A DNA stretch of 54,145 nt from Thermincola ferriacetica (GTDB taxonomy: Bacteria > Bacillota > Thermincolia > Thermincolales > Thermincolaceae): NCBI RefSeq assembly GCF_001263415.1, contig NZ_LGTE01000022.1, positions 1 to 54,145 on the forward strand, given 5' to 3'. The notes under the pieces were generated by a model. The model saw nothing but the letters and a program-made list of their open reading frames with translations, was not told the origin of the DNA and did no database searches. Positions 21,300 through 38,668 of this stretch are shown in pieces. How positions within the stretch are numbered: position 1 is the stretch's first letter; every line of letters begins with the position of its first letter. A program made the translations under genes and the position numbers.

Positions 21300-21989
21300 G
21301 TGAAAAAACTCATTACTGCTGCGGATGTCAAAAAACTTTCCGCTTCAGGGCAGGCGGTGCTGTATGTTGAACCGGGCACCATTATTACACCTTCGGCCAA
21401 AGACCTGGCCAAAGAAATGAAAATTACAATCAGTTATGAGACGCCTCCTGAACAACCATCTTCTGGCATAAACGGGCAGGTTTCGACAACAAATGAAGCT
21501 TTGGACACCAAGAAGCATACTGTCAGTTCTGTTACAAAAATAGAAGACATTCCTCCGCATCTGATTGCTGAAATTGTGAAAAAAGTGCTGGATTCTTTGC
21601 CCGGTGTGCCAAAGGAACCGAATCTGGTCAGAGAGGTTGATGGTTCCGGTGTTGTACTGGTAAAAGGCAATTCTGTAAAAATGGAACCTTTTGATGCGGG
21701 TAATCCGAACCTCAAAGTAGGCATTCGGGAGACCATGACCCGTGAATTGAGTCCCCACCTGGCTGCAGGGTTTATGGAAATGGAAGAATCGGCTTTTGAT
21801 TGGACGCTAACCTATAATGAAATGGATTATGTGATTGAGGGCACCCTGGATATTACAGTGAACGGTAAAACGTACAGGGGCCAGGCCGGGGATGTGTTCT
21901 ATATCCCGGAAGGGACTTCCGTCACCTTCTCTACTCCGGATAGATGCAAATTCTTTTATGTTACCACCCCGTGGCCCGCATTCCTTTAA
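21300..21989 (+). CDS. eutQ: EutQ, cupin-fold ethanolamine-utilisation protein
   Basis: EutQ of 229 residues. An N-terminal module (ITAADVKKL...EPGTIITPSAKDLA) similar to that of EutT is followed by a linker and a C-terminal cupin (GFMEMEESAFDWTLTYNEMDYVIEG, YIPEGTSVTFST). EutQ has been reported to act as an acetate kinase and in compartment assembly. The GTG start at 21300 has GGGAGGTGA upstream. Since ackA and pduL are also present, a structural role is as likely as a catalytic one. Confidence 0.92.
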   Translation: MKKLITAADVKKLSASGQAVLYVEPGTIITPSAKDLAKEMKITISYETPPEQPSSGINGQVSTTNEALDTKKHTVSSVTKIEDIPPHLIAEIVKKVLDSLPGVPKEPNLVREVDGSGVVLVKGNSVKMEPFDAGNPNLKVGIRETMTRELSPHLAAGFMEMEESAFDWTLTYNEMDYVIEGTLDITVNGKTYRGQAGDVFYIPEGTSVTFSTPDRCKFFYVTTPWPAFL

Positions 21990-22071
21990 TGCGAAGGACC
22001 GGAGTCCATGGAACATCATTGATTAAAATATAGGAAACAAAAAACTAAATTAATCAGGAGGGTTATGAATT

Positions 22072-22350
22072 ATGACAAATGCATTAGGAATGATTGAAAC
22101 AAAAGGCCTGGTTGCAGCAATAGAGGCTGCAGACGCTATGGTCAAGGCTGCTAACGTAACTTTAATCGGTAAGGAGCATGTCGGCGGCGGATTGGTTACT
22201 GTTATGGTAAGAGGCGACGTAGGCGCCGTAAAGGCTGCTACCGATGCTGGCGCTGCTGCTGCGCAGCGGGTTGGCGAACTTATTTCAGTACACGTAATCC
22301 CAAGACCTCACGGAGATGTAGAGTTTATCCTTCCCTCCATAAAAAAATAA
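22072..22350 (+). CDS. eutM: EutM/PduA-type hexameric shell protein
   Basis: Canonical BMC-H protein of 92 residues, probably the main facet component. It has the typical [20 protein letters not shown] start and the [11 protein letters not shown] ending. AGGAGGG precedes the ATG after a roughly 80-bp gap from eutQ. It is followed by a related BMC protein with a long tail. Confidence 0.96.
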
Positions 22351-22371
22351 TCTTGCCGGGAGATTTGGGAA

Positions 22372-23019
22372 ATGAATCAAAAAGCTTTGGGAATGATTGA
22401 AACTTACGGACTGGTTGCCGCTATCGAGGCAGCTGACGTGGCGCTGAAGACGGCTGCTGTCGAACTTATTAACTACGAAATTGTAAAAAGCGGCCGGATT
22501 ATGATTGCCATATACGGAGAGGTGGCAGCAGTCCAAGCTTCTGTGACGGCTGGCGCTGCTGCTGCCGCCAAAATAAACACAGTTTTTAGCGCGCATGTAA
22601 TTCCCAGGCCTCTTGCTGACCCACGGCTCCTGATTAAACACAGGGATTCGGAAGAAGGACCTCTCAATCCAGGTGATGGCAGTCCGGATTCAGGCGGTAA
22701 TGGCCCGGGTCCGGTGTCCCCGGAAGAATATACAGAAAAAGAAGGCATTAATGAAGGCATTAATAATGAGGCTCTGGAAGAAGAAGGGCCGGGAAATATT
22801 CAGTCAAGGGCACCGGAAAATTTGGGAAATAGCGGCATGACAGTTTCAGACGAACAGGCGCAGTTACCTCCCGGTTTAGAGCACTTAAAGTCTATGTCAG
22901 TAGAAGAACTGCGCAGGTTAGCCAGGCGAACAGAAGGTATTGCCATTAAAGGCAGGCAAATATCCAGAGCCAACAAAGAAAAATTAATAGCTGAAATTGT
23001 ACGTGCCAAGAAAAATTAG
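22372..23019 (+). CDS. EutK-like shell protein with C-terminal SAP/Rho-N-like module
   Basis: N-terminal BMC-H domain (1-90) closely similar to EutM, then an acidic Gly/Pro/Asn-rich linker (about 91-165) and a basic helical module at about 168-213 (LKSMSVEELRRLARR...RANKEKLIAEIV). The module looks like the helix-extended-helix of SAP or Rho N-terminal domains, which often bind nucleic acid. Salmonella EutK likewise has a BMC domain plus a C-terminal helical nucleic-acid-like domain, but of a winged-helix type. It ends in TAG. Function of the tail is unknown. Confidence 0.88.
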   Translation: MNQKALGMIETYGLVAAIEAADVALKTAAVELINYEIVKSGRIMIAIYGEVAAVQASVTAGAAAAAKINTVFSAHVIPRPLADPRLLIKHRDSEEGPLNPGDGSPDSGGNGPGPVSPEEYTEKEGINEGINNEALEEEGPGNIQSRAPENLGNSGMTVSDEQAQLPPGLEHLKSMSVEELRRLARRTEGIAIKGRQISRANKEKLIAEIVRAKKN

Positions 23020-23066
23020 AAAATGCATAATTTTACCCAGAGAAAACCCAGGAAAGGAGGCAAAAC

Positions 23067-24530
23067 TTGGAAATGGCCTTTGATTATGATCTTATTTCTA
23101 TCCAGGAAGCAAGGGACATTGCCCGCAAAGCCAAAGCTGCCCAGGAGATTCTGGCCGAATTTTCCGAAGAGAAAATTAACCGTATTGTGGCTGCTATGGC
23201 GGAAGCAGGCAAAGCCAATGCCGAGTGGTTGGCCAAGATGGCAGTGGATGAAACCAAGTTTGGGGTTTTTGAGGATAAGGTAACTAAAAATATTTTTGCA
23301 TCAACTAATGTCTATGAATATATAAAAGACATGAAAACAGTAGGGGTGCTTAAGGAAGACCCCGATAAAAAGATAGTGGAAATAGCTGCGCCTGTTGGTG
23401 TAATCATGGGGATTATTCCCTCTACAAACCCGACTTCCACCACCATATATAAGGCTCTGATATCTGTTAAAGCCGGCAATGCTATTGTCTTTTCTCCCCA
23501 TCCGAACGCTGCCCGGTGTACTTATGCGGCTGCCCAGGTCATGCATGAGGCGGCAGTCAAGGCCGGCGCTCCCGAAGGGATTATCGGCTGCCTGACCAAA
23601 ACCACCATGGCTGCTACACAAGAGCTGATGCGCCATGATGATATAGCGATGATTCTGGCAACCGGCGGGTCCGCCATGGTTAAAGCGGCTTATAGTTCAG
23701 GCAAGCCTGCTTATGGTGTAGGGCCCGGTAATGTGCCTGCGTTTATTGAGCGTACGGCAGATGTTAAGCAAGCGGTCGCTGACATCATCAGGAGTAAAAC
23801 TTTCGATAACGGCGTAATCTGTGCTTCTGAACAGGCCATAATTGTGGATGAGCCCATCAAAGACCAGGTAATAGCCGAATTAAAGGCTCAAGGCGCTTAT
23901 TTCCTGAACAAAGAAGAAATAGAGGCTGTCAGCAGGGTGGTTATGACTCCCCGGGGCGGCATGAATGCGGCTATGGTAGGCAAGAGCGCTCAGGTTATTG
24001 CCGAAAAGGCAGGTATTAAAATCCCTGTTGGAACTCGTATTTTGATTGCCCCATTGGATGGGTATGGACCTGATTATCCGCTATCCTATGAAAAACTTAC
24101 AACTGTGCTGGCTTTTTATACTGTTAAAGATTGGCATGATGCCTGCCTCCTGAGCATTGAACTGCTGAAACTGGGAGGTATTGGGCACAGTTTTGTGATT
24201 CATACTCAGGATGAACAAGTAGCGCGGGAATTTATTCGTAAACCGGTGTTCCGTATTCTGGTCAATACTCCGTCGGCACTGGGAGGCATTGGCTATACAA
24301 CAGGGTTGGCTCCTTCCCTGACCTTGGGATGTGGGTCCTGGGGAGGTAGCAGCACGTCAGACAACGTCACTCCGCTGCACCTTATCAATATTAAAAGACA
24401 AGCTTACGGCTTGCGGCAGGCAGCGCCTGGAACAGCTCAGCTTTCCAATGCGGGGCGGTTCACCTCAGAAGATATTGCCGATGTGGTCAAGGCGGTTTTG
24501 ACCCAACTTCAATGCAAGGCTACCGGCTGA
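23067..24530 (+). CDS. eutE: EutE, acylating acetaldehyde dehydrogenase
   Basis: CoA-dependent aldehyde dehydrogenase that oxidises acetaldehyde to acetyl-CoA with NAD inside the compartment. The 487 residues show the cofactor region PVGVIMGIIPSTNPTS and the active-site segment TFDNGVICASEQ with Cys252. AGGAGG lies 7 bases before the TTG at 23067. The N-terminal helix (LISIQEARDIARKAKAAQEI) could be a targeting helix. No eutG alcohol dehydrogenase is present, so NADH must be re-oxidised another way, for example through PduS/PduT. Confidence 0.95.
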   Translation: MEMAFDYDLISIQEARDIARKAKAAQEILAEFSEEKINRIVAAMAEAGKANAEWLAKMAVDETKFGVFEDKVTKNIFASTNVYEYIKDMKTVGVLKEDPDKKIVEIAAPVGVIMGIIPSTNPTSTTIYKALISVKAGNAIVFSPHPNAARCTYAAAQVMHEAAVKAGAPEGIIGCLTKTTMAATQELMRHDDIAMILATGGSAMVKAAYSSGKPAYGVGPGNVPAFIERTADVKQAVADIIRSKTFDNGVICASEQAIIVDEPIKDQVIAELKAQGAYFLNKEEIEAVSRVVMTPRGGMNAAMVGKSAQVIAEKAGIKIPVGTRILIAPLDGYGPDYPLSYEKLTTVLAFYTVKDWHDACLLSIELLKLGGIGHSFVIHTQDEQVAREFIRKPVFRILVNTPSALGGIGYTTGLAPSLTLGCGSWGGSSTSDNVTPLHLINIKRQAYGLRQAAPGTAQLSNAGRFTSEDIADVVKAVLTQLQCKATG

Positions 24531-24548
24531 TAGGGCAGGTGGGAACCG

Positions 24549-25205
24549 TTGGACAGGGAAGAACTGGTTTCAATCATAACAGAACAGGTTATCAGCCAGT
24601 TACAGCAAATGGCTAAAGTTGCGCCTGCCGATCACAGGAATAAAAAAATCCCATTGGGTATTTCCAACCGCCATGTGCATATTTCGGCAGAAGACCTGGC
24701 AACGCTATTTGGTAAGGGCGCACAGTTGACCAAGTTGAGGGATCTTTCACAACCCGGTCAGTTTGTAAGTGAACAGATGGTTACCCTGGTGGGTCCCAAG
24801 GGAGTCATAGAAAAAGTCCGCGTTTTGGGTCCCGTAAGAAAGAAAACGCAGGTAGAAATTTCAATTTCTGACTGTTTCAAGTTAGGCGTAAAAGCGCCTA
24901 TCAGGGATTCAGGGGACCTGGAGGGCTCGGCGCCTATAACGGTGGTAGGGCCGGTGGGATCAGTAACCTTGCCGGAAGGCTGTATCATTGCTGCCCGGCA
25001 TATCCATTTGCATCCTGCCGATGCCGAAATTTTCGGTTTAAAAGATGGCGACCGGGTCAATGTAAAATGTTCCGGCCCAAGAGGGATAATATTCACAGAG
25101 GTGCTGGCCAGGGTTAATGAAAACTACAGGCTGGAAATGCACCTTGACGTAGATGAGGCAAACGCTGCTTCCCTAAGGAACGGTGATTTGCTGGAGATTG
25201 TATAA
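24549..25205 (+). CDS. pduL: PduL, phosphotransacylase
   Basis: Converts acetyl-CoA and phosphate to acetyl phosphate and recycles CoA within the shell. The 218 residues contain two PduL zinc/substrate motifs, SNRHVHIS and ARHIHLHP. The N-terminal helix (EELVSIITEQVISQLQQM) resembles compartment-targeting peptides. It replaces the EutD phosphotransacetylase of enteric operons. The start codon is TTG. A strong hairpin lies between it and ackA. Confidence 0.94.
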   Translation: MDREELVSIITEQVISQLQQMAKVAPADHRNKKIPLGISNRHVHISAEDLATLFGKGAQLTKLRDLSQPGQFVSEQMVTLVGPKGVIEKVRVLGPVRKKTQVEISISDCFKLGVKAPIRDSGDLEGSAPITVVGPVGSVTLPEGCIIAARHIHLHPADAEIFGLKDGDRVNVKCSGPRGIIFTEVLARVNENYRLEMHLDVDEANAASLRNGDLLEIV

Positions 25206-25209
25206 CGGG

Positions 25210-25237
25210 GGCCACACAGCCCTTCGGTTGTGTGGCC
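25210..25237 (+). other. Hairpin between pduL and ackA
   Basis: GGCCACACA / TGTGTGGCC forms a 9-bp GC-rich stem with a 10-base loop containing CTTCGG-like sequence. No T-run follows, so it is probably an mRNA stability or partial attenuation element and not a terminator. Confidence 0.55.
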
Positions 25238-25266
25238 GCCTTAAATAAGCAGAAGGAAGATGAAGC

Positions 25267-26460
25267 ATGAAGGTTTTGGTAATTAATTCCGGTAGCTCAT
25301 CATTAAAATACCAACTGTTCGACATGAAAGAAAGACAGGCAATAGCAAAAGGGCTGGTAGAGCGAATCGGTATTCCGGGGTCCCGCCTGACCCATTACCC
25401 TGCAGACCGGGAACCTTATAGGGTGGAGCGGGAGATTAAACATCACGGTATGGCCCTGGAGATTATTTTTGATGCATTGACCCATGCCGGGCATGGAGTG
25501 ATAAACAACATTAAGGAAATTGACGCAGTTGGACACCGTGTAGTACACGGAGGAGAGATATTCAAGGGACCGGTCCTGGTGGATGATGCTGCCAAGGAGG
25601 GAATCAGGCGGCTTGCCGAACTGGCGCCCCTTCATAACCCGGCGAATCTGCTGGGTATAGAGGCATGTGAAAGACTTCTCCCCGGCATCAGGCAGGTGGC
25701 AGTATTCGATACCAGCTTTCATCACACAATACCGCCCCATGCGTACATGTATGGCTTGCCTTATAGATATTACGAGGAATACGGAATCCGCAGGTATGGA
25801 TTTCACGGGACATCCCATAAATATGTGGCCCAACGGGCCGAAGCATTGTTAAGCAGACCGCTACAGGAACTTAAAATTATATCCTGCCATTTAGGGAGTG
25901 GTTCCAGTATAACTGCCATTCTGGGCGGATGTTCGATAGATACCAGTATGGGTTTTACCCCGCTGGAAGGTCTTACAATGGGCACAAGAAGCGGAGACCT
26001 TGACCCGGCCATTATCACGTATTTAATGGAGAAAGACAATTTGTCTCCGGCACAAATCAACAAAATTCTTAACCACATGGGCGGTGTGCTGGGGGTTTCC
26101 GGCTTAAGCAGCGACTTCCGTGACCTGGAAAAGGCTGCTGCTGAAGGGAATAAACGGGCCAAGCTGGCTATTGATTTGTTTGTACACAGGGTAAAAAAAT
26201 ATATCGGCGCTTATGCAGCTGAACTAAACGGCCTTGATGTACTTATTTTCACTGCCGGTTTAGGAGAGAATTCGCCCGAGATAAGAGCAGCCATCTGTCA
26301 GGGACTGGATTACCTGTATCTATGGGTCGATCCGGAGAAAAATATGGTCCGGGGCCGGGAAGCGGATATATCAACATCGGGTTCGAGGGTAAGAGTACTG
26401 GTGATTCCTACGAATGAAGAATTAATGATAGCGTCGGAAACAATGCAATTGATAAATTAA
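25267..26460 (+). CDS. ackA: Acetate kinase
   Basis: Makes acetate and ATP from acetyl phosphate, the energy-yielding end of the ethanolamine path. The 397 residues are typical. Signatures include VLVINSGSSSLKYQL at the start, VFDTSFHHTIPPHAY, RRYGFHGTSHKYV and FTAGLGENSPEIR. AAGGAAGATG precedes the ATG. It is the last gene of the eut operon; only a small CCCG/CGGG hairpin follows. Confidence 0.97.
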   Translation: MKVLVINSGSSSLKYQLFDMKERQAIAKGLVERIGIPGSRLTHYPADREPYRVEREIKHHGMALEIIFDALTHAGHGVINNIKEIDAVGHRVVHGGEIFKGPVLVDDAAKEGIRRLAELAPLHNPANLLGIEACERLLPGIRQVAVFDTSFHHTIPPHAYMYGLPYRYYEEYGIRRYGFHGTSHKYVAQRAEALLSRPLQELKIISCHLGSGSSITAILGGCSIDTSMGFTPLEGLTMGTRSGDLDPAIITYLMEKDNLSPAQINKILNHMGGVLGVSGLSSDFRDLEKAAAEGNKRAKLAIDLFVHRVKKYIGAYAAELNGLDVLIFTAGLGENSPEIRAAICQGLDYLYLWVDPEKNMVRGREADISTSGSRVRVLVIPTNEELMIASETMQLIN

Positions 26461-26509: not shown

Positions 26510-26539
26510 TTGCAAATGCTCCAAAGCATATTGTATACT
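26510..26539 (+). promoter_or_regulatory. Sigma-A promoter of the ubiX-pocR-corrinoid cluster
   Basis: TTGCAA, 18 bases, TATACT, about 85 bp before the ubiX-like start. It gives the cluster from 26624 on a transcript of its own, separate from eut. Confidence 0.6.
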
Positions 26540-26623
26540 AGGTTAACAATATCTGGCGATTTATGCCATGGTAGGAGCATAACAAGCCAGGGCTTGAGCA
26601 AAGAAAGAGAGGGGAAGGAAAAA

Positions 26624-27184
26624 TTGAAATTGGTTGTTGCTATTACCGGCGCTTCAGGCGCTATTTATGGAATAAAAATAATGGAAGAAATTAAAAAGAA
26701 GGCCTTTGAAACCCACCTTATCATTAGTAAATGGGCAAGGACCACAATAGAAACAGAAACCAGGTATACAGTGAAAGAGGTTGAAAAACTGGCCACCTAT
26801 TGTTATAACGAAGATGATCTGGCAGCGCCTCTTTCTAGCGGTTCCTTTAAGTGGGACGGTATGGTTATTGCCCCTTGCAGTATGAAGACACTGTCCGGCA
26901 TAGCCAATGGTTATACCGACGGGCTGATTGTTAGGGCAGCCGATGTTGCTCTCAAAGAAAAGAGGCCCCTGGTGCTGATAACCAGGGAAACTCCGTTGAA
27001 TCCGATTCATCTGGAAAATATGTTAAAGCTAGCCAGGATTGGGGTTACAATTATGCCGCCTGTACCTGCTTTTTACGCGGCGCCGGCAACGATTGACGAT
27101 ATAGTAAACCAGACTGTTGGAAGGGCGTTGGACCTGTTAGGCATAGAGACTGATTCCGTGAAACGTTGGGGCGGAAAAACCTAA
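26624..27184 (+). CDS. ubiX: UbiX-type flavin prenyltransferase
   Basis: Makes prenylated FMN, the cofactor of UbiD decarboxylases, from FMN and dimethylallyl phosphate. The product has 186 residues with the family text VVAITGASGAIYGIK, PCSMKTLSGIANGYTDGLIVRAADVALKE and RETPLNPIHLENM. The TTG at 26624 has AGAGAGGGGAAGG upstream and gives the normal family length. No UbiD homologue is in the window, and the neighbours are a regulator and a corrinoid protein, so its substrate partner here is unclear. Confidence 0.9.
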   Translation: MKLVVAITGASGAIYGIKIMEEIKKKAFETHLIISKWARTTIETETRYTVKEVEKLATYCYNEDDLAAPLSSGSFKWDGMVIAPCSMKTLSGIANGYTDGLIVRAADVALKEKRPLVLITRETPLNPIHLENMLKLARIGVTIMPPVPAFYAAPATIDDIVNQTVGRALDLLGIETDSVKRWGGKT

Positions 27185-27213
27185 TAACGACATAGGTCGC
27201 GGGAGGGAAAATT

Positions 27214-28509
27214 ATGAGCGGACTTATGGATTTATTGCATCATGTATCGGAAGACGTTTTATTGAGAATTTTATCATCCTTTACTGCGGCTACCGGACTT
27301 AATGCAATTATAGTGGACAGGGACGGCCGGACGCTGCTCCCAGCAAACTCTGAAAAGGATTGTACATTTTGTAGGATTATTAAGGGTGACCCTGTCGGTT
27401 GTAATAAATGCAGGGGGTCTTATGCAAGGGCCGGCTTGCAGGCGGCCCAGTTCGGGGAACCTTATATTTTTCGGTGCCATGCCGGATTGGTAGCTTTTGC
27501 GGCCCCCATTGTGATTGAAGGTACACTTTTAGGTTCCATTATTTGTGGGCAAGTACTAATGTGGGAACCGGAAGACTTCTTTTGGGAAGAAATTTCAGAG
27601 ATGACCGCCGGATTAAACGTAAAACAAGGCGAATTAATAAAGGCAGCCGGGGAGTTGGAGGTGCTATCCGGCCGCAAGGTACAAGCCGCAGCTGACCTGT
27701 TATTTGTTGTGGCTAACCATGTTATGCAAAGTAGTAACGTGGCGGTACAGCAGCGTAAGGAAATCGCTCGCCGGCAGGCGCAGTTAAACGATGAAATTCG
27801 CCAGCGCAAAGAGTTGGAACAAAAACTTGTCGAAGTGGAAGGCCGCATTTATGGCCACTCTATGCTGCAGAAGGAAAAAGAATTAATGGCGGCGGTGCGA
27901 CTTGGCGACAAAGAAAATGCTATGAACCTGTTGAACTGGTTAGTTTCCGACCTGGTCGAAAAATTTGTGGCTAAACCGCGTGTTTTTAAGGTCCGTATCC
28001 TGGAATTAATGGTTACTATTTCCCGGGCTGCGGCGGAAGCGGGCGCAGACCCGGATAAGCTGCTCGATTTGAACTACCGTTATCTCGATGAATTTTCCCG
28101 GAATGAGCGGGTAGACGAGCTGTCCAACTGGATTTTCAAAGCTCTGGATAGTATAATGGACATTATTTATGGTAATGTCAACCTAAAACACCTTGAGGTA
28201 ATAGAAAGGGCAACGGAATTTATCCGGAAAAATTATGACCGCAACCTAAGTCTCAACGATATTGCCCAGGCTTGTTTTATCAGCTCGTATCATCTCAGCC
28301 ACATCTTTAAGGAACAGTTGAATTGCACCATTATGGAATATTTGACCAGGGTGCGCATGGAAGAGGCCAAGAAAATGTTGTCCAATCCCCGTTTCACTAT
28401 AATAGATATTGCTGAAAAAATCGGTTACAACGACCCCGGGTATTTTTGCCGGGTCTTCAAGAAAAAAGAAGGAATCACCCCGTCCGCTTATAAGAAGCAG
28501 TTGATGTAA
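27214..28509 (+). CDS. PocR-domain AraC-family regulator
   Basis: Transcription regulator of 431 residues. The N-terminal PocR sensory domain (about 8-175) has a cysteine pattern C50-X2-C53, C63-X2-C66 and C88. A coiled segment (about 185-215) and a helical region follow, then a C-terminal AraC-type double helix-turn-helix (about 330-428; SLNDIAQACFISSYHLSHIFKE and DIAEKIGYNDPGYFCRVFKKKEG). PocR itself controls B12-dependent propanediol use; ligands proposed for the domain include small hydrocarbon derivatives. It lies directly upstream of an orphan corrinoid protein gene and may control it or the adjacent eut operon. Confidence 0.9.
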   Translation: MSGLMDLLHHVSEDVLLRILSSFTAATGLNAIIVDRDGRTLLPANSEKDCTFCRIIKGDPVGCNKCRGSYARAGLQAAQFGEPYIFRCHAGLVAFAAPIVIEGTLLGSIICGQVLMWEPEDFFWEEISEMTAGLNVKQGELIKAAGELEVLSGRKVQAAADLLFVVANHVMQSSNVAVQQRKEIARRQAQLNDEIRQRKELEQKLVEVEGRIYGHSMLQKEKELMAAVRLGDKENAMNLLNWLVSDLVEKFVAKPRVFKVRILELMVTISRAAAEAGADPDKLLDLNYRYLDEFSRNERVDELSNWIFKALDSIMDIIYGNVNLKHLEVIERATEFIRKNYDRNLSLNDIAQACFISSYHLSHIFKEQLNCTIMEYLTRVRMEEAKKMLSNPRFTIIDIAEKIGYNDPGYFCRVFKKKEGITPSAYKKQLM

Positions 28510-28530
28510 GACAGAAAGGAAGAGAGGAAT

Positions 28531-29166
28531 TTGTATCTTGCGCAGATAGCTTATGCCCTTAAAACAGGAGATACGGCGGAAATTCGGCGCCTGACCGCCA
28601 TGGCTCTGGAGGAGGGCGTCTCGCCCGAACAAATTCTTAATGAAGCATTGATTCCCTCTATGGAAGAAGTGGGCCAGCAGTTCAGGGGAAGTGAGATATT
28701 TATTCCTGAGGTTATGAAATCTGCCCGGGCTATGCATGGAGCTATTCGCCTGTTGCAGCAGAAACTTGTTTATTCACCGAAACAGGAAAAGACGGTTAAG
28801 ATTCTCATCGGAACAGTAGCCGGCGATCTACATGATATCGGGAAAAACCTGGTCAGTATGTTTTTGACAGCTAAAGGGTATGAGGTTATTAACCTGGGGA
28901 TAGATGTACCCGTTGAGGATTTTGTTTGGGCTGTACGGAAACATAAACCGCATGTTTTGGCCATGTCGGCACTGCTGACAACAACAATGCCGTCCATGCT
29001 CGATACAATTAACGAATTAAAGAGAGTCGGGTTAAGGGATAAAGTAAAAGTTCTTGTCGGTGGGGGGCCGGTAACGAAGCAATTTGCCGAAGAAATAGGC
29101 GCCGACGGTTACGGGTATGATGGTAAAGCCGCTGTTGACTGGGTGGCGGAACACGTTAAAATTTAG
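28531..29166 (+). CDS. Orphan corrinoid protein (MttC/MtgC family)
   Basis: Second methyl-carrier corrinoid protein, 211 residues. It has the cap helical region and DLHDIGK with the cobalt ligand at His101, then INLGIDVP and SALLTTTMPSM. The TTG at 28531 follows AAAGGAAGAGAGG. No methyltransferase gene is next to it; its neighbours are a PocR regulator and DUF2284/MoxR/VWA genes. Its methyl donor enzyme may be encoded elsewhere, or it may serve as a sensor. It ends in TAG and is followed by a hairpin. Confidence 0.9.
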   Translation: MYLAQIAYALKTGDTAEIRRLTAMALEEGVSPEQILNEALIPSMEEVGQQFRGSEIFIPEVMKSARAMHGAIRLLQQKLVYSPKQEKTVKILIGTVAGDLHDIGKNLVSMFLTAKGYEVINLGIDVPVEDFVWAVRKHKPHVLAMSALLTTTMPSMLDTINELKRVGLRDKVKVLVGGGPVTKQFAEEIGADGYGYDGKAAVDWVAEHVKI

Positions 29167-29179
29167 AAGAATATGAAAG

Positions 29180-29203
29180 CGCTTTTTGCTTTGGCAAAAA
29201 GCG
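29180..29203 (+). terminator. Hairpin after the orphan corrinoid gene
   Basis: CGCTTTTTGC / GCAAAAAGCG, a perfect 10-bp stem with a 4-base loop, followed by ATGTTTTATAAA. The tail is weak, so partial termination and lower expression of the genes after it is the likely effect. Confidence 0.6.
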
Positions 29204-29238
29204 ATGTTTTATAAAGAAATTTTTTAGGGGTGATGTCT

Positions 29239-29790
29239 TTGGAAAGCGGGAACGACTTATTTAATTATCTTAAAGATATTGCCAATAATTGCGGAGGAAA
29301 CCTTCTGGAATTAAACATTAAACACATAAAACCCAAACAGAGCATCCGGTTAAAATGCCAGATGCCATTGTGCAGACACTACGGTGTCTGTAAAGTTTGC
29401 CCTCCCTTTATTCCGAGCGTTCAAGAATTTACAGAAGCCTTGAGTGATTACAGCAAGGCATTTCTTATTGTTTACCGGGAAAGAATTTCTGATATAGAAG
29501 AATACAGGAAGGACTATGCCGCAGAACTTAAACTGGCTGAAATAGTACACAACCTTGAAGCAGCCGCCTTTAAGCGCGGCGAATATCAGGCTATAGGGCT
29601 GGTTGTAGGCGGTTGCAAACTATGTGAAAAATGCGCACCCCCCGGAGAGTCGTGCCGTCACCCCAGAAAGGCCCGCCCTAGCCCGGAAGGACTTGGGATT
29701 GATATAACCAAGCTGGCCAGGGAAGCCGGTGTGCCTATTGAATGGCCGCCTAAAGAATATGTGCATTTGCTTGGATTGCTGTTAATATAG
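29239..29790 (+). CDS. DUF2284 predicted metal-binding protein
   Basis: Cysteine-rich protein of about 183 residues. Two clusters are seen: CRHYGVCKVCPPF in the N-terminal half and CKLCEKCAPPGESCRHP in the C-terminal half, followed by RPSPEGLGIDI. Such proteins are described as metal-binding and occur often near corrinoid methyltransferases; the function is not established. TTG 29239 is chosen because AGGGGTGAT is 5 bases upstream; GTG 29230 and ATG 29233 lie inside that ribosome site. It ends in TAG, and the next ORF is in the same frame. Confidence 0.83.
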   Translation: MESGNDLFNYLKDIANNCGGNLLELNIKHIKPKQSIRLKCQMPLCRHYGVCKVCPPFIPSVQEFTEALSDYSKAFLIVYRERISDIEEYRKDYAAELKLAEIVHNLEAAAFKRGEYQAIGLVVGGCKLCEKCAPPGESCRHPRKARPSPEGLGIDITKLAREAGVPIEWPPKEYVHLLGLLLI

Positions 29791-29826
29791 CCGATAAAGC
29801 GATTGGAAGACAGGAGTGTAATAAGG

Positions 29827-30777
29827 GTGCTTAAAATTTATACTAATTTGGTGAAGACAGTAGTAGGGCGGAACCGTGAGCTGAAAGCCATTCTTTCTGC
29901 TATTGATGCAGGTAAACATATCTTGTTGGAAGGGCCGCCGGGGACCTCAAAATCTACTATATTACGCAACATTGCCAGGGAAGCTAAAATGCCCTTTTAC
30001 ATAATAGAAGGGAATATTGATTTAACGCCGGGAAAGCTGGTTGGCCATTTTAACCCGGCCAAAGTGATGGCCGATGATTACCGGCCGGAATACTTTGAAA
30101 AAGGACCTCTTACCAAAGCCATGGAGGAAGGAGGAATCCTGTATATAGAGGAGTTTAACCGGATGCCGGCCGATGTGTCTAATGTACTCATTACTCCCAT
30201 GGAAGAAGGGGAGCTTTTTATTCCAAGGTACGGCACTGTTAAAGCCGCTGACAGATTTACGGTTGTTGCTTCCCAAAACCCTTACGATGATGTAGGTACT
30301 GTGCGGGTAAGTCGGGCCTTCATGGACCGGATCTGCCTGATAAAAATGGAATACCAGCCCCAACAAGAGGAAGAAATTATTGTTAAACGAAAGACCGGCT
30401 GTACAGATCAAAGGATTATTGAGTTGGCTGTTAAATTTGTCAGGAAAACGCGGGAACACCCTGATATAAAGATGGGTGCTTCAGTCAGAGCGGCCATTGA
30501 TATAGTTGATATATTTAACAGCCTGCAGAAGTTGGATACTTTTATTGATGAAAATATACTAACTGCTGCCCGTATGGCTCTGGGCAATAAAATTTGGCTC
30601 AACGAGATTACTACGAAAACGGTGGATAAAATAATTGAAGCTATTTGGGAAGATTTAAGGGCAGACGTAAGTAACCTTAAGGAATTAAATGAAGGCAATG
30701 TAGGTGCGGTAAGTTCGCATAACGGACCTCCGGCTATAAATGGGGAAAAAGAGTTAAAAAAAAGGAACCTGGTATAG
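29827..30777 (+). CDS. MoxR-family AAA+ ATPase
   Basis: AAA+ ATPase of about 316 residues. Walker A GPPGTSKS (about 36-43), Walker B ILYIEEFNRMP and sensor-1 VVASQNP are visible. MoxR proteins work with a VWA partner to insert cofactors or remodel enzymes (NorQ/NorD, CbbQ/CbbO, CoxD/CoxE); the VWA gene follows directly. GTG 29827 is chosen for AGGAG 10 bases upstream; the frame stays open to a TTG at 29803 and is in phase with the DUF2284 gene across one TAG. It ends in TAGTAG. The client enzyme is unknown; the corrinoid neighbours are candidates. Confidence 0.88.
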   Translation: MLKIYTNLVKTVVGRNRELKAILSAIDAGKHILLEGPPGTSKSTILRNIAREAKMPFYIIEGNIDLTPGKLVGHFNPAKVMADDYRPEYFEKGPLTKAMEEGGILYIEEFNRMPADVSNVLITPMEEGELFIPRYGTVKAADRFTVVASQNPYDDVGTVRVSRAFMDRICLIKMEYQPQQEEEIIVKRKTGCTDQRIIELAVKFVRKTREHPDIKMGASVRAAIDIVDIFNSLQKLDTFIDENILTAARMALGNKIWLNEITTKTVDKIIEAIWEDLRADVSNLKELNEGNVGAVSSHNGPPAINGEKELKKRNLV

Positions 30778-30791
30778 TAGAAAAAGTTTCT

Positions 30792-31631
30792 TTGGCAGGG
30801 TACCGCGAAGGGCCGTATCATTACCGGATTGCCCAGTATTTAAATACGCATCCGGGAGATTTGCAGGAATTTGTTGAAACCGCCAATTCGCTGGATGATT
30901 TTGCCAAAGTTTTTGACATGCTGAAACCTCGGGTTCGGGCTTTAGCGGTAAAATTTGCTTCCCGCATAATTACCAAGACGGCAAAGCAAATTGCCGATAC
31001 GGGATATAGGTCCGGGAAACTGAAGATTGTTAAGGGCTTCCCGGAGACCGGTGAAATAGATTTGGACCGCAGCCTGGAATACTTCATGGATGAACCGGAA
31101 CGGGGAATCCTGGACAACCTCGCTACATATAACCGGCTGAGAGAAAAAAGCGCTTTTGTGATTATGATTGATCACAGTTACTCGATGAGGGGCTTAAAAA
31201 TTGTTTTGGCTGCTATTACAGCGGCAACAATAGCTTATCATTTTAAAACGGATTTTTCAGTTTTGGCATTTAGCAATAAAGTAAAAGTTCTTAAAGCGAT
31301 AAACCATATGACTGGACCGGAAAAAGTCGTGGAACAGTTGTTTGACCTGAAACTGCAGGGGGATACTAATGTACGTCTTGCATTGGAGGAAGGATTGAAG
31401 CAGGTTAGTGATTTTGCCGAGAAAAAGGGCTTAATACTGACAGACGGCTCTTGGAATACAGGAGGTAATCCCCTGGACATGGCAGCAAAGTATGACAAAC
31501 TAAATGTTATTGGTTTCCCGCCGGCTAACCCGGACAAAGTCAAACTACTTTCCAACCGGGGAAAAGGGGAATTTGCCTTTGTAGAGACGGAGAAGCAAAT
31601 TGCCAATGCTATAATCAAATGCCTTAATTAA
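30792..31631 (+). CDS. VWA-domain protein (CoxE/NorD-like partner of MoxR)
   Basis: Protein of 279 residues with a C-terminal von Willebrand A domain. The MIDAS metal motif DHSYS is at 127-131, with TNVRLAL and ILTDGSWN as the later MIDAS segments. It follows the MoxR gene by 14 bases, which is the standard pairing. The TTG at 30792 is the first usable start; its ribosome site is poor. Likely the substrate-adaptor half of an ATP-driven activation machine. Confidence 0.86.
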   Translation: MAGYREGPYHYRIAQYLNTHPGDLQEFVETANSLDDFAKVFDMLKPRVRALAVKFASRIITKTAKQIADTGYRSGKLKIVKGFPETGEIDLDRSLEYFMDEPERGILDNLATYNRLREKSAFVIMIDHSYSMRGLKIVLAAITAATIAYHFKTDFSVLAFSNKVKVLKAINHMTGPEKVVEQLFDLKLQGDTNVRLALEEGLKQVSDFAEKKGLILTDGSWNTGGNPLDMAAKYDKLNVIGFPPANPDKVKLLSNRGKGEFAFVETEKQIANAIIKCLN

Positions 31632-31946: not shown

Positions 31947-33152
31947 ATGGACACATCAAAAATGCAGCAATTTCCCGAACTGACAACCGACAGGATTTTT
32001 GGCTTGTATATAGAGAGCGAAGAGAACAAAAAAAGGTCCGAAGAGCTATATAAAGCCCTGGACCAGGCCTTTATCTGGTCCATAATTTCAGAAGTCGTTG
32101 CTCATTATGACATTGGCAAGGTTACAGAGCTTTATGAAATTTTCGGCGGGTATGTGAACAGGAGTTTTGGGATCTATACCGAGAAGGACGGGCAAAAGCA
32201 GGAGTTTTTTGTGAGGCTTTACAAAAAGGGTGTAACTGAAAAGGAAATTATGTTTGAACATTCCCTGCTTGACTTTGTTAAGGCAAACGGTTTGGATATG
32301 GCTGCCGGAATCTACCGGACAAAAGACGGCAGAAGTTTTCTGAAGAAGATTATTGGAACCGGGGAAAAAGCTGAAGAGCGGTATTTTGCTGTTTACGAAT
32401 TCCTTCCGGGCGAAGACAAGTATACCTGGGTTGAAAACGTGCTTACGGATGAGGAATTTGCCAGCATAGCAGAGATACTGGCCACGTTCCATAATGCGGC
32501 CAGGGGATTTGATCCCAAAGGTTTGGAAAGAGTGGAGCCAAAAATTCTGGAACTCATTCCCACTTTGAAAGCCAAATTCAAGGAATACGCGGAAACTGAC
32601 TGGAAAGATAAGTTTACTGAATATTTCCTGAAAAACCTTGACTCTATTTTGGAAGAGATAGATCGGATAAAAATACCGGCCGAAGAATTGGCCAAAATGC
32701 CCATGAATCCCATCCACTGCGATTTCCATCCGGGAAACCTGAAATATGCTAACAATAAAGCCGTAGGTATTTTCGATTTCGACTGGTCCAAGATAGATCT
32801 GAGGCTGTTTGATATCGGGTTGGGTCTGGTTTATTGCTGTAGTTCGTGGATAGATGAAACAGACGGGACAATGATGCTTGACCAGAGTGCCATATTCTTG
32901 AAAGCCTATCAGAACAAACTCAAAGAGCTTGGCGGGTTAGAGCCTCTCAACGAAGTGGAAAAGAAACATTTACCCACTATGTTGGCAGCCGGTAATATGT
33001 ATTTAATTTTCTGGGCTCTTAGGGATTATTACAGTAATTTAGGCGAGCTGAACGTGTTTGAATACCTGACCTATTTGCAGCACCAGGTTAAGTTAATGAA
33101 CTGGATTCGGAAAAACTGGGATGTGCTCCTGGAAATTGCTAATAGCATTTAA
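31947..33152 (+). CDS. APH/choline-kinase-fold phosphotransferase, paralogue 2
   Basis: Second kinase paralogue, 401 residues, aligned residue for residue with the protein at 8459 through at least position 290. The catalytic loop HCDFHPGN is at 257-264 and GIFDFDW at 274-280. FLPGEDKYTW and ATFHNAAR-FDP-G-ERVEP are shared with paralogue 1. AAGGAGG lies 6 bases before the ATG. It is followed by a second MttB-type methyltransferase, so both copies stand next to methylamine genes. Substrate unknown. Confidence 0.85.
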   Translation: MDTSKMQQFPELTTDRIFGLYIESEENKKRSEELYKALDQAFIWSIISEVVAHYDIGKVTELYEIFGGYVNRSFGIYTEKDGQKQEFFVRLYKKGVTEKEIMFEHSLLDFVKANGLDMAAGIYRTKDGRSFLKKIIGTGEKAEERYFAVYEFLPGEDKYTWVENVLTDEEFASIAEILATFHNAARGFDPKGLERVEPKILELIPTLKAKFKEYAETDWKDKFTEYFLKNLDSILEEIDRIKIPAEELAKMPMNPIHCDFHPGNLKYANNKAVGIFDFDWSKIDLRLFDIGLGLVYCCSSWIDETDGTMMLDQSAIFLKAYQNKLKELGGLEPLNEVEKKHLPTMLAAGNMYLIFWALRDYYSNLGELNVFEYLTYLQHQVKLMNWIRKNWDVLLEIANSI

Positions 33153-33218: not shown

Positions 33219-34664
33219 ATGCAACAATTTACCAGGTTTTTTACAGATGAACAACGTGTGCGGATTCACGAGGCTTCTCTGGAGATCCTCGAAAATGTTG
33301 GTCTTTTGGTCCGCAACAAAAAGGCGCGCGAAATTTTTGCCAAACACGGGTGCGAAGTGGACAACCAGACAACCCTGGTGAAAATTCCGCGCAAAATCGT
33401 TGAAGAATGTCGAAAGTCTTTTGTCCCTACTTATACCTTTACAGCTCAAGACCCGCAGTATGATGTTACCTTGCCTGGGGACAGGCCGGTGGTGGTAACA
33501 GGAAGCTCTGCTCCGAACATCATAGACCCCATTACCGGGGAAGAAAGGCGCGCAACTTCTGCCGACATAGCCAACATAGCTTATCTGATTAACGAACTGC
33601 CTGGCTTTGACGTATTTTCTATTTCCACTCTGGCTGAAGATGCTCCTAAAGGCCAGTTCAGTTTATCCCGTTTCTACCCGGCATTGAAGAACTGCAAGAA
33701 ACCTGTTCGTAGCAACACTCCGAGTATTGCAGACCTTGAGCAGGTTTTAGAACTGGGTTACCTGATAGCCGGCAGCAAGGAAGCTTATATGGAGCGCCCC
33801 TTTATTAACCATCACTATTGTCCGGTAGTATCTCCGTTGACTATGGATGTGGAATCAACGGAGGCTGTAATATACCTAACTGAAATGGGCCTTCCTGTAT
33901 ACGGTACGATAGTTCCGAACGCTGGGATGACCTCACCGATGACAATGATGGGAACCTTGGTTCTGGGTAATGCAGAATTCCTGGCTTTGGCTACCCTGAT
34001 TCAGCTTATCCGTCCAGGAGCTCCAATGATTTATGCCGTATTGTCCACTGTTGCAGACATGCGTACAGGAAACTATGCTCCCGGCGCTGTAGAAACAGGC
34101 ATTCTGCAGATGGCTCACACCGAAATGGCCAGGTTTTATAACGTACCATCCGGTGGTTATATTGGCTTAACTAATTCCCATGTAAATGATGCCCAGTCCG
34201 GTTATGAGACCGGTATTAATACCACCGCAGCCCTTTGTGCCGGAGCAGACCTCTTTAATATGGGCGGACTGCTGGGCAGCCTGATGGCCTTTGATTTTGC
34301 CAAGGCTGTAATTGACAACGAAATTGCTCTCATGCTCAAACGTATCAAGAGAGGCATGGAATTTAGCGAAGAAAACATGGCTCTCGACCTGATCAAGCAG
34401 GTAGGTCCGGGAGGTTCTTACATGGATCTTGAGCACACTATGGCCAATATGCGTACCACTGCTGTACTGCCCAAAGTTGCCAACCGTGACCCCAGAGGTC
34501 GTTGGGAAGATATGGGCCGTCCGGATGCTCATGCCCGTGCACTGAAGGAAGCTAAGAAAATATTGACCAAGGAAAACCCGGCCCGGTTCCCGGCAGAACT
34601 GGATGAAAAAATCCGGGCTCATTTCCCGGGCATAGTAGCAGGCGACGCCCGTTGGTATGAGTAA
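33219..34664 (+). CDS. MttB-family methyltransferase without pyrrolysine
   Basis: Corrinoid-dependent methyltransferase of 481 residues. Its C-terminal half aligns with the pyrrolysine enzyme: FYNVPSGGYIG-L-TNSHVNDAQ against FYNIPSWVAGG-Pyl-TDSKVPDPQ, so Leu317 sits where MttB has pyrrolysine. Members without pyrrolysine, such as the glycine betaine enzyme MtgB, demethylate quaternary amines. Immediate neighbours are its corrinoid protein and a methyltetrahydrofolate methyltransferase, a complete three-part module. Substrate could be glycine betaine, proline betaine, carnitine or a similar compound; not decidable from sequence. Confidence 0.9.
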   Translation: MQQFTRFFTDEQRVRIHEASLEILENVGLLVRNKKAREIFAKHGCEVDNQTTLVKIPRKIVEECRKSFVPTYTFTAQDPQYDVTLPGDRPVVVTGSSAPNIIDPITGEERRATSADIANIAYLINELPGFDVFSISTLAEDAPKGQFSLSRFYPALKNCKKPVRSNTPSIADLEQVLELGYLIAGSKEAYMERPFINHHYCPVVSPLTMDVESTEAVIYLTEMGLPVYGTIVPNAGMTSPMTMMGTLVLGNAEFLALATLIQLIRPGAPMIYAVLSTVADMRTGNYAPGAVETGILQMAHTEMARFYNVPSGGYIGLTNSHVNDAQSGYETGINTTAALCAGADLFNMGGLLGSLMAFDFAKAVIDNEIALMLKRIKRGMEFSEENMALDLIKQVGPGGSYMDLEHTMANMRTTAVLPKVANRDPRGRWEDMGRPDAHARALKEAKKILTKENPARFPAELDEKIRAHFPGIVAGDARWYE

Positions 34665-34721: not shown

Positions 34722-35348
34722 ATGAGCATTAAGGATATTTATCAGGCAGTAATTGATTTTAATAATGCAAAGGTTGTTGAGCTGGTTAAGCATGAACTGG
34801 CCAACGGGACTGATGTGTCAACCATTTTAAATGACGGCTTGATTGCAGCTATGGATGAAGTGGGCCGCCTTTTCAGCGAAGGAGAGCTATTTGTTCCGGA
34901 GATGCTGAGGTCTGCGCAGGCTATGAAGGCCGGTTTGGACGAATTAAAACCCCTCCTTGCTCAATCAGCGGCCAAATCCGCGGGGACCATTGTCATAGGT
35001 ACAGTTAAAGGTGACCTGCACGATATCGGCAAGAACCTGGTGGCTATGATGATGGAAGGTGCTGGATTTGACGTAATTGATTTGGGTGTTGACGTTGACA
35101 CAGAGAAGTTTGTGAAGACTGCCAAAGAAAAGAACGCCAACGTTATTTGTATGTCGGCTCTTCTTACTACTACGATGCCCGGTATGGAAGAAGTTATCAA
35201 GGCTGTCAAGGCTCAGGGCCTGGACATTAAGACTATGGTTGGAGGGGCGCCTGTCACCCAGGAGTTTGCCAATAAAATTGGAGCCGACGGTTATGCTGAA
35301 GATGCGCCAGGAGCTGTTGAAAAAGCCCGTGAATTGGCATCGGCATAA
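34722..35348 (+). CDS. Corrinoid protein (MtgC-like)
   Basis: Third methyl-carrier corrinoid protein, 208 residues, with DLHDIGK (cobalt ligand His100), VIDLGVDVD and SALLTTTMPGMEE. It starts 57 bases after the methyltransferase and 57 bases before the methyl-H4folate gene, with AAGGAGCGA upstream. It should carry the methyl from the enzyme at 33219 to the enzyme at 35406. Confidence 0.92.
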   Translation: MSIKDIYQAVIDFNNAKVVELVKHELANGTDVSTILNDGLIAAMDEVGRLFSEGELFVPEMLRSAQAMKAGLDELKPLLAQSAAKSAGTIVIGTVKGDLHDIGKNLVAMMMEGAGFDVIDLGVDVDTEKFVKTAKEKNANVICMSALLTTTMPGMEEVIKAVKAQGLDIKTMVGGAPVTQEFANKIGADGYAEDAPGAVEKARELASA

Positions 35349-35405: not shown

Positions 35406-36203
35406 ATGATAGTAGTGGGAGAACTCATCAATGCCAGCCGCAAACCTATTAAAGAAGCTATTGAGACTCAAAATGCGGATTATATTAAGCAGATTGCCAA
35501 AGAACAACATGAAGCAGGCGCAAACTATATAGATGTTAATGCCGGTATCTTTGTGGGCAAAGAGCCTGAATACCTGCAGTGGCTGGTTAAAAATGTTCAG
35601 GAAGTGGTAGACGGGCCTTGCTGTATTGACAGCCCTGACCCGAAGGCTATTGAAGCGGCTCTTGCCGTGCACAAAGGAACCCCGATGATAAATTCCATAT
35701 CGCTGGAGAAAGAGCGTTATGATGCATTATTGCCGATTATCGCCGGTACCGATTACAAGGTAGTAGCTTTGTGTATGAGTGATGGCGGTATGCCTGAAAC
35801 TACAGAAGACAGGCTGAAAATTGCCGACGAACTGATTAACGGTCTGGTTAAAAACAACATTCCTATAGACAACATTTATGTAGACCCATTGGTTCAACCG
35901 ATAGGAACCAACAGCAATTTTGGCATTGAATTTCTCAACGCCGTAGAAGCTATTATGACCAGGTTTAAAGGAGTTCATACCATGTGCGGGTTGTCAAACA
36001 TTTCCTACGGTTTGCCTAACCGTAAATTCCTGAACCAGGCCTTTGCCATAATGGCTATTGCCAAGGGACTTGACGGTCTGATTATCAACCCGCTGGACAA
36101 GCAAATGATGGCCGGTCTTATTGCTGCTGAAGCTTTGGCCGGAAGAGACGATTTCTGTTGCAATTACCTTGGCGCATTCCGTGCAGGTAAATTTGAATTC
36201 TAA
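35406..36203 (+). CDS. Methylcobamide:tetrahydrofolate methyltransferase (MtgA-like)
   Basis: Pterin-binding TIM-barrel methyltransferase, 265 residues. Characteristic text is VVGELINASRKPIKEAI, DVNAGI, CIDSPDPKAIEAAL, DPLVQPIGTNS and GLSNISYGLPNR. It moves methyl groups from the corrinoid protein to tetrahydrofolate (compare AcsE and MtgA), which feeds the Wood-Ljungdahl pathway. AGGAGG precedes the ATG. Followed by a terminator at 36257. Confidence 0.92.
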   Translation: MIVVGELINASRKPIKEAIETQNADYIKQIAKEQHEAGANYIDVNAGIFVGKEPEYLQWLVKNVQEVVDGPCCIDSPDPKAIEAALAVHKGTPMINSISLEKERYDALLPIIAGTDYKVVALCMSDGGMPETTEDRLKIADELINGLVKNNIPIDNIYVDPLVQPIGTNSNFGIEFLNAVEAIMTRFKGVHTMCGLSNISYGLPNRKFLNQAFAIMAIAKGLDGLIINPLDKQMMAGLIAAEALAGRDDFCCNYLGAFRAGKFEF

Positions 36204-37042: not shown

Positions 37043-38668
37043 ATGGCTGTGAATAAAAACCTTTATGAGATAACCTTTCATCCTTTAAAATTGTCAGTAA
37101 AAATCCCCGCCGGTATTTCTGTTCTGGAAGCGGCGCTACAAAATAACATACCTTTGGAGGGTCCATGTAACGGTAAAGGTACCTGTGGAAAGTGCCGGGT
37201 CCGGTATAAAGGAAGGCTCTCCGCACCCACCGAAACGGAAACAAGGATTCTGGGGCCAAAAGTTGGTTCCGGATGGCGGCTTGCCTGCCAGGCCAGGGTA
37301 ATGGGCGATGTAGAAATCTGGCTGGAAGAAAAACAGGCGTTTCATACCGTTGATGCTGGGCAGGCAAGTAATTATCCCTTTGATCCGCCGATATTATCCC
37401 GAGTGGCTTATAAAGAAACTATCTATGGAGTGGCAATAGATATTGGCACAACCAGTATCGTGGCTTCCCTGGTCGACCTAAAAAACGGGGGAAAAGAAAT
37501 AGGTGTTGCTTCCTGCCTGAACCCGCAGACTCAATATGGCGGAGACGTAATAACACGTATCACTTTTGCTCATCAGTCAGAAGAAAACACAAAAAAGCTG
37601 CAGAGCGCCGTTATTGATGGCATAAACCGATTAATCGGGGAACTGGTTGCTAAGACAAAGGTGGATCCAAGTGATATTCTACACATGACTGTAGCGGCAA
37701 ATACCACTATGCTGCATTTACTGGTGGGCATTGACCCCATACCTTTGGCCCGGGCGCCTTATAATCCCGTATTCATAGACTACAGGGAATACAAAGCTGC
37801 CGAACTCGGCATCAAAATAGCGTCCGATGCGGTAGTCAGCCTGCTGCCTTCCTTGTCAGCATTTGTAGGCGCTGATATTTTGGCAGGCATGATAGCCATT
37901 GATTACCATAAAGAAACGGCCCCTTCGTTGTTTGTCGATATCGGTACCAACGGTGAAATAGTAGCGAACGTAAAAGGCAAACTTGCAGCAACTTCCTCGG
38001 CAGCCGGCCCGGCTTTGGAGGGTATGAATATTCATCACGGCTGTAGAGCTGAGGATGGAGCCATATCTGAAGTAAAGATTAACGAAAAAGGAGAAGTAAT
38101 CGTTAAGTCAATCGGTACTGCGCCAAGAAAAGGCATTTGTGGGAGCGGGCTGGTGGATTTGGTGGCTGAGTTGGTTAAGTCGAAAGTTATCTTATCCAGC
38201 GGAAGTTTTGCCGGGACAGCAGATTTACCGCCGGTTCTTGGGGAACGGGTAATCGAATTTCAGGGGCAGAAAGCATTTTTGGTCGACCCGGAAGCGGGAA
38301 TAATTTTAACACAAAAAGATATCCGCCAGGTTCAACTGGCTAAAGCGGCCATCGCAGCGGCCATAGAAATCCTCTTTCAACGCCTGGAATTCGATATTAG
38401 AGAAGTGGAAAAGATTTATATTGCCGGCGCCTTTGGTTATCATTTAAAACCTGCGTCATTGAAAACTTTGGGCTTGTTGCCGGCAGGCCTGGGGGGCCAC
38501 ATTGCATTTGTGGGGAACACGGCCAAAGAGGGGGCGCGTCTTTGCCTGACAAGCAAGCTGGCCTTGGAGGAAATAGTGGCTGTACAGAAGAAAATAAATG
38601 CGGTAGAGCTTTCTTACGCGCCTGAATTTATGGATAATTATGTGCAACAGATGAATTTTCCCGATTAA
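37043..38668 (+). CDS. RamA-like corrinoid reductive activator (2Fe-2S, DUF4445)
   Basis: ATP-dependent activator that re-reduces Co(II) corrinoid proteins to Co(I). The 541 residues have an N-terminal plant-type ferredoxin domain with C42, C48, C51 and C82, then an ASKHA-type domain with GVAIDIGTTSIVASL, VDIGTNGEI and YIAGAFGYHL. Family members such as RACE proteins and bacterial RamA homologues occur beside methylamine and O-demethylase genes. One such activator could serve all three corrinoid proteins here. GGGGCAGGAG precedes the ATG. Confidence 0.92.
   Translation: MAVNKNLYEITFHPLKLSVKIPAGISVLEAALQNNIPLEGPCNGKGTCGKCRVRYKGRLSAPTETETRILGPKVGSGWRLACQARVMGDVEIWLEEKQAFHTVDAGQASNYPFDPPILSRVAYKETIYGVAIDIGTTSIVASLVDLKNGGKEIGVASCLNPQTQYGGDVITRITFAHQSEENTKKLQSAVIDGINRLIGELVAKTKVDPSDILHMTVAANTTMLHLLVGIDPIPLARAPYNPVFIDYREYKAAELGIKIASDAVVSLLPSLSAFVGADILAGMIAIDYHKETAPSLFVDIGTNGEIVANVKGKLAATSSAAGPALEGMNIHHGCRAEDGAISEVKINEKGEVIVKSIGTAPRKGICGSGLVDLVAELVKSKVILSSGSFAGTADLPPVLGERVIEFQGQKAFLVDPEAGIILTQKDIRQVQLAKAAIAAAIEILFQRLEFDIREVEKIYIAGAFGYHLKPASLKTLGLLPAGLGGHIAFVGNTAKEGARLCLTSKLALEEIVAVQKKINAVELSYAPEFMDNYVQQMNFPD

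Follow-up and report, generated by a model that had tools for sequence, protein, structure and literature searches.

Two conserved corrinoid-linked gene modules and a separate ubiX gene in Thermincola ferriacetica: a putative PocR-corrinoid protein sensor pair and a candidate DUF2284-MoxR-VWA accessory machine

The locus analyzed in this work lies in the genome of Thermincola ferriacetica (3.18 Mb), on a single contig of 54,145 bases referred to as the window, and comprises six genes at positions 26510-31631, all on the forward strand. The nearest relatives of the source genome include metagenome-assembled genomes (MAGs) named Thermincola ferriacetica and other Bacillota. Profile searches confirmed the gene content and order given by a first-pass annotation of the same DNA, i.e., ubiX, pocR, a corrinoid protein gene and the genes of a DUF2284 protein, a MoxR ATPase and a VWA protein. 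An ethanolamine microcompartment operon (11798-26460) precedes the stretch and a corrinoid methyltransferase operon follows it; the stretch itself is made up of two conserved corrinoid-linked modules, module A (pocR and the corrinoid protein gene) and module B (DUF2284-MoxR-VWA), plus ubiX.

The first gene encodes a UbiX-family flavin prenyltransferase of 187 amino acids (26624..27184, PF02441), read from an improved TTG start at 26624 behind GGAAGG; its score to TIGR00421 is 273.1 bits, above the cut-off of 108.9 bits. It is followed by a regulator with a PocR sensory domain and AraC-type DNA-binding domain (27214..28509; PF10114, 157 bits, and PF00165/PF12833) and by the corrinoid protein (28531..29166; PF02607 and PF02310), which belongs to the PocR-partner clade described below and carries the cobalt-ligating DxHxxG motif as GDLHDIG. 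A terminator-like hairpin with a 10-bp stem and a T-rich tail (29180..29203, forward strand) lies between the two modules. Module B then encodes the DUF2284 protein, cysteine-rich and predicted to bind metal (29230..29790; PF10050, 153 bits), a GvpN-like MoxR-type AAA+ ATPase with an improved GTG start (29827..30777; AAA_5/AAA_3) and a CoxE-like VWA protein (30792..31631; PF00092/PF05762). The ATPase shows Walker A (GPPGTSKST), Walker B (LYIEEFNR), the sensor 1 asparagine and an arginine finger, and the VWA protein has a complete metal ion-dependent adhesion site (MIDAS), consisting of D127-x-S129-x-S131, T192 and D218.

The first-pass annotation had described the six genes as one cluster with its own sigma-A promoter, a view that the present data do not sustain. 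The hairpin parts ubiX-pocR-corrinoid from DUF2284-MoxR-VWA; terminator-like hairpins are no commoner in the region than in shuffled sequences. The proposed promoter, TTGCAA and TATACT at an 18-base spacing (26510-26539), matches at 9/12 positions, and the shuffled region yields about ten such matches. A single six-gene machine was rejected, as all six genes occur together in no other fetched genome; the ubiX-pocR-corrinoid trio recurs in genome G003, where the search for VWA homologues found none (L143, a short contig). The co-occurrence check suggested by the annotation was borne out for the modules taken separately, DUF2284-MoxR-VWA recurring with corrinoid methyltransferases in several lineages and the PocR-corrinoid pair across Bacillota, and not for the six genes as one unit. 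Its mention of a corrinoid protein lacking a methyltransferase fails for the region, since methyltransferase operons occur on either side in the window: an APH kinase gene and an MttB-MttC-MtgA-RACo group beginning 1.6 kb downstream follow on the same strand, and a pyrrolysine (Pyl)-dependent mttB with pyl genes is found at 351-6349.

Homologues of the PocR regulator were detected in 62 of 398 Bacillota genomes (E<=1e-60). At the 50 loci fetched with enough sequence for a neighbour, a corrinoid gene was directly downstream of pocR in 35 cases and adjoined it on the opposite strand in 7 more, and the pairs occur in both orientations and in many families. To counter a PocR-only sampling, 60 further regions were fetched from the top corrinoid-protein matches not already PocR-linked, and 137 corrinoid proteins sampled from both kinds of match were placed in a tree by a quick method with SH-aLRT support. 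The window protein fell in a 35-row clade (SH-aLRT 98) whose members all neighbour PocR, 34 within 135 bp and one (L189) convergently at about 745 bp, whereas only 8/102 proteins outside the clade have such a neighbour (Fisher 3e-25, not corrected for relatedness). The distance matrices of PocR and its partner were correlated (r = 0.82, with 0/2000 permutations as high), as expected if the two proteins are inherited together. Besides the main clade, PocR neighbours a second, smaller set of corrinoid proteins, which were observed with UroD-type methyltransferases (L158, L163, L165-L168, L194, L221).

The window corrinoid protein thus has the appearance of a B12-binding protein dedicated to the PocR regulator. 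It would bind a cobamide via the conserved histidine and report cobamide availability, or methylation or redox state, to PocR-AraC, in the way AerR serves CrtJ, and PocR-AraC would in turn control the B12-dependent amine pathways encoded next to it. Competing with this is the somewhat less probable explanation that the PocR-adjacent protein is an ordinary catalytic methyl carrier, from a subfamily that serves MttB-type enzymes encoded at a distance of a few genes, and shares a transcript with the regulator controlling its pathway. Several data favour such a carrier and weigh against a sensor: the D, H and G of DxHxxG are present in 35/35 clade members, so that the protein retains the catalytic histidine and could still carry methyl groups, and its best-matching family is MtgC-like (254.7 bits to NF047996, the glycine betaine MtgC, below the 370-bit cut-off). 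In addition, two mttB genes lie just upstream of pocR in genome G127, RACo or MtgA genes follow some pairs, and the dichloromethane cassette contains both MecA (a PocR kinase) and MecB (a corrinoid protein) with methyltransferases of its own (PMC9768040). The 137-protein tree was a quick one built without bootstrap, which also tempers the sensor assignment.

A catalytic role is thus still conceivable for the clade protein, because some pairs sit in operons also holding mttB. On the other hand, a first methyltransferase (MttB, MtbB or MtmB) was found within 400 bp of 0/35 clade members versus 34/102 other corrinoid proteins, and cap-domain residues common in the latter (e.g., G55 and M75) are relaxed in the clade, where M118 and A186 drift as well. 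Moreover, the methyltransferases of the window are already partnered by corrinoid proteins at 4098 and 34722. We therefore regard the dedicated PocR partner as the better description of module A.

As for module B, Walker A, Walker B, sensor 1, arginine finger and sensor 2 of the MoxR protein are conserved across homologues, and midasin, 2r44, NorQ and CbbQ are among its nearest relatives of known structure. The MIDAS residues of the VWA protein are invariant in 14 homologous sequences. Its predicted model (pLDDT 85.8) returned the VWA domain of NorD in the NorQD complex as best PDB match (E 3e-10); the TM-score of about 0.5 and the rmsd of about 10 over the whole alignment indicate that the similarity is highest in the VWA core. 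VWA profile matches to pentatricopeptide repeats extended over only 25 residues and were disregarded as spurious. MoxR and VWA are fused in one protein in three genomes (L038, L044, L048), which argues that the two proteins work together; a CobW gene adjoins one of the fusions (L044). In the DUF2284 protein four cysteines are invariant and others nearly so among 12 homologues. A QueG-like or B12-processing fold was considered for it and discarded, as the top foldseek matches, MMACHC and nitroreductases, were not significant and a profile comparison with a neighbouring QueG-like protein was negative.

Close VWA homologues (61-64% identity) were found within the class in five genomes (G004, G005, G006, G007 and G009), where the neighbouring genes encode methylamine methyltransferases with in-frame TAG (mtbB, mttB or mtmB), corrinoid proteins, MtrH-like and UroD-type methyltransferases and RACo. 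The order DUF2284-MoxR-VWA beside methylamine methyltransferases is kept in Thermincolia, two Desulfobacula MAGs, a Peptococcaceae MAG and the Bacillota UBA8154, while a Syntrophomonadaceae MAG shows the same order with no DUF2284 visible. Among the 398 Bacillota genomes, pylB scored over the cut-off in 7/7 with a close VWA homologue versus 18/391 others (Fisher 1.6e-9 by genome, 8e-7 by genus), p-values that overstate independence, since six of the seven carriers come from one class. A scan of named genomes, run with an alignment query as the single VWA sequence gave no match, returned eight carriers (one being G194 again), with pylB over the cut-off in six, split over contigs in one and lacking in the most distant. 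A plasmid search found no VWA homologues on plasmids. Dependence of the module on MtbB was rejected, the source genome having neither mtbB nor mtmB. In two Thermincola MAGs the genes of an EamA-type permease, perhaps a methylamine transporter, and of a 95-aa protein lie between DUF2284 and MoxR (L029 5405-6487; L030 12587-13672).

The source genome contains a second MoxR cluster (C13:71.8-81.5 kb) in the order DUF2284, DUF1638, DUF2284, CbbQ_C-type MoxR, a 980-aa protein, DUF2284, UroD-type methyltransferase, CobW and corrinoid protein. The 980-aa protein, which matched no family, may be the VWA-type partner by its position and size, the Pfam search having found no VWA domain in it. Variants of this cluster occur in eight other genomes (G004, G006-G009 and the distant G233, G276 and G306). 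Between the source genome and G009, the methyltransferase and the corrinoid protein of the cluster are about 92% identical and the 980-aa protein 63% (L035 9808-19541). A fifth DUF2284 copy is fused to an O-methyltransferase-like domain (L036 9028-10563, on C33) beside bzaD, thiC-like bza genes, cobT and cobS, and possibly takes the BzaC position of an anaerobic B12 lower-ligand operon. With four copies in the MoxR clusters and the fifth in the bza operon, all five DUF2284 copies stand in corrinoid contexts. Taken together, these contexts, the second MoxR cluster and the recurrence of DUF2284-MoxR-VWA with corrinoid genes partly support an accessory machine for corrinoid enzymes. The maturation or repair machine for corrinoid or B12 enzymes put forward by the first-pass annotation is thus a sound proposal for module B, while the corrinoid protein it included belongs instead to the regulator-linked clade.

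By analogy with NorQD, the MoxR hexamer would grip and twist the VWA protein, whose metal site would dock on a client of the corrinoid system, and the client would be opened in an ATP-dependent manner so that its cofactor or metal could be loaded or rescued; the cysteine-rich DUF2284 protein would serve as a metal or electron carrier. On the whole, we consider it slightly short of an even chance that module A is a cobamide-sensing regulatory pair and module B a chaperone that remodels corrinoid methyltransferase systems at the expense of ATP, with ubiX separate. On the side of module B, a number of observations weigh against this assignment. The DUF2284 model gave no significant fold match (foldseek, best E 0.14), the fused MoxR-VWA proteins of the three genomes are not beside methyltransferase genes, and one fusion genome (Methylomirabilota, 34-39% identity) shows no pylB over the cut-off. 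In addition, 18/25 pylB-positive Bacillota genomes lack module B, which indicates that Pyl methyltransferases generally do not need it, and the restriction of six of the seven positive Bacillota genomes to one class counts in the same direction.

Among the other explanations of module B, the one that survives best, although we regard it as unlikely, is a metal-insertion or maturation system (for zinc, cobalt or Fe-S) serving one enzyme of the methyl branch, e.g., a UroD-type methyltransferase or an Fe-S activator, and not the rescue of corrinoid proteins. NorQD, the closest precedent in structural terms, is an iron-insertion system (PMC13036017). In the second cluster a UroD-type methyltransferase accompanies MoxR and its partner, in most versions together with the CobW metallochaperone, and the same metallochaperone adjoins the fusion at L044. 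However, module B in the window is unaccompanied by a UroD-type gene or CobW. Furthermore, no catalytic metal is known for MttB. A specific service to pyrrolysine-containing proteins, i.e., folding or quality control of Pyl enzymes, would account for the presence of pylB in every one of the seven Bacillota genomes with a close VWA and in most carriers from elsewhere, and for the in-frame TAG of the adjoining mtbB, mttB or mtmB; it is nevertheless improbable, as module B precedes a non-Pyl mttB in the window, the parallel MoxR-DUF2284 cluster showed no methyltransferase gene with an amber codon and 18 Pyl genomes do without the module. Finally, chance neighbourhood of unrelated genes in a methylotrophy island, with co-occurrence from shared ancestry and joint transfer, agrees with the predominance of one class and the uniqueness of the six-gene set and is very improbable, given the DUF2284-MoxR-VWA order kept by methyltransferases in Desulfobacula and other distant lineages and the PocR-corrinoid pairs found in either orientation across so many families.

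The claim that the UbiX of the window lacks a UbiD was overturned by a UbiD gene at another site of the genome (C11:14171), near which no UbiX was present within the 13 kb read. The ubiX-pocR-corrinoid products of G003 are 67/65/68% identical to the window proteins; with this as just one other case, ubiX was rejected as a regular partner of pocR. Most likely, ubiX supplies prenyl-FMN to the UbiD made elsewhere.

Downstream of module B, the methyltransferase group, also on the forward strand, is led by an APH/choline-kinase-like phosphotransferase (31947..33152; PF01636, PF01633). Next come an MttB-family methyltransferase without pyrrolysine (33219..34664; PF06253, 297 bits), whose frame is complete with no amber codon when aligned to the Pyl MttB, its cognate MttC-like corrinoid protein, outside the PocR-partner clade (34722..35348), an MtgA-like corrinoid:tetrahydrofolate methyltransferase (35406..36203; NF005719, 360 bits), a HAD phosphatase and a RACo-type corrinoid activator (37043..38668; PF14574, PF17651, PF00111). 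A thiamine pyrophosphate (TPP) riboswitch precedes an ssu/thi-type ABC transporter operon (38775-41330). At the other end of the window, the bacterial pyrrolysine cassette at 351-6349 contains pylB, pylC, pylD, a short protein read as pylSn, mttC and the in-frame-TAG mttB, with an Rfam PYLIS_3 match at 5260-5359; kinase and sodium-solute-type transporter genes separate it from the microcompartment operon. Within 8459-38668, mttB-type genes and choline-kinase-related kinases (8459, 31947) thus lie on either side of that operon, which suggests that choline-like amines are demethylated stepwise to ethanolamine and then cleaved in the compartment.

Acetogens, sulfate reducers and methanogens rely on corrinoid methyltransferases for the anaerobic use of methylamines, choline and betaine, and the loading and rescue of their oxidation-prone corrinoid proteins are only partly known. 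A bolder proposal, which we put forward as rather doubtful, is that the locus contains two undescribed modules: a widespread PocR-AraC sensor for which a dedicated corrinoid protein, no longer catalytic, reads the cobamide or methyl state, and a MoxR-VWA-DUF2284 machine, recruited at least two times, that rescues or loads corrinoid methyltransferase complexes. In the open-access literature, subscription journals being mostly outside the scope, we found nothing relevant that connects MoxR and VWA with either corrinoid methyltransferases or pyrrolysine, and no account of a PocR-corrinoid protein pair. The conserved ATPase-VWA-DUF2284 module offers named genes to delete, and DUF2284, a family of no known function, acquires a consistent corrinoid context. 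If the proposal is true, the paired corrinoid protein and PocR, common in Bacillota, would represent a new form of B12- or methyl-supply sensing that is directly testable.

Compared with known regulators, module A would resemble AerR/CrtJ and CarH in combining a separate B12-binding protein with a transcription factor (PMC5362033, PMC6199135), and the window corrinoid protein weakly matches the CarH family; module A differs in having PocR-AraC as the regulator and a B12 protein of the type found in corrinoid methyltransferase systems. EUT2D microcompartment loci are reported to carry a PocR regulator instead of a two-component system, together with PduS and acetate kinase (PMC4207490). Like the regulators of these loci and of pdu/cob, the window protein has PocR sensory and AraC domains. 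Its gene starts 0.75 kb after ackA, next to a B12-dependent microcompartment operon whose genes, PduS and acetate kinase among them, were read from open reading frames without a profile scan, and the pair stands beside eut genes in two genomes, the window and G114. A paired corrinoid protein is not mentioned for EUT2D in PMC4207490.

Module B is closest to NorQ/NorD, which inserts non-haem iron into the nitric oxide reductase (NOR) cNOR by a finger-in-pore twisting mechanism (PMC13036017). In both systems a MoxR ATPase gene adjoins a VWA gene with a complete MIDAS, the NorD VWA being the best fold match, and in the predicted model the MIDAS strand is preceded by a strand-helix-strand extension (residues ~77-115) that could act as the finger. 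Unlike NorD (638 aa), the window VWA protein (279 aa) has no large N-terminal domain and linker; its MoxR is GvpN-like, with no CbbQ_C match in the Pfam search, and in place of NOR the neighbouring genes encode corrinoid methyltransferases and DUF2284. CoxD/CoxE (CO dehydrogenase maturation) and CbbQ/CbbO (Rubisco activase) share the MoxR-VWA principle; the window VWA matches the CoxE family and the second cluster holds a true CbbQ_C-type MoxR, whereas module B is surrounded by methyltransferase genes and not by those of CO dehydrogenase or Rubisco. Finally, RamA/RACo provide an ATP-dependent service to corrinoid methyltransferases, as proposed here for module B, and are encoded in the same gene clusters. 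Their proteins are unrelated to those of module B and RACo or RamA-like genes are present in addition, indicating that module B does not replace them.

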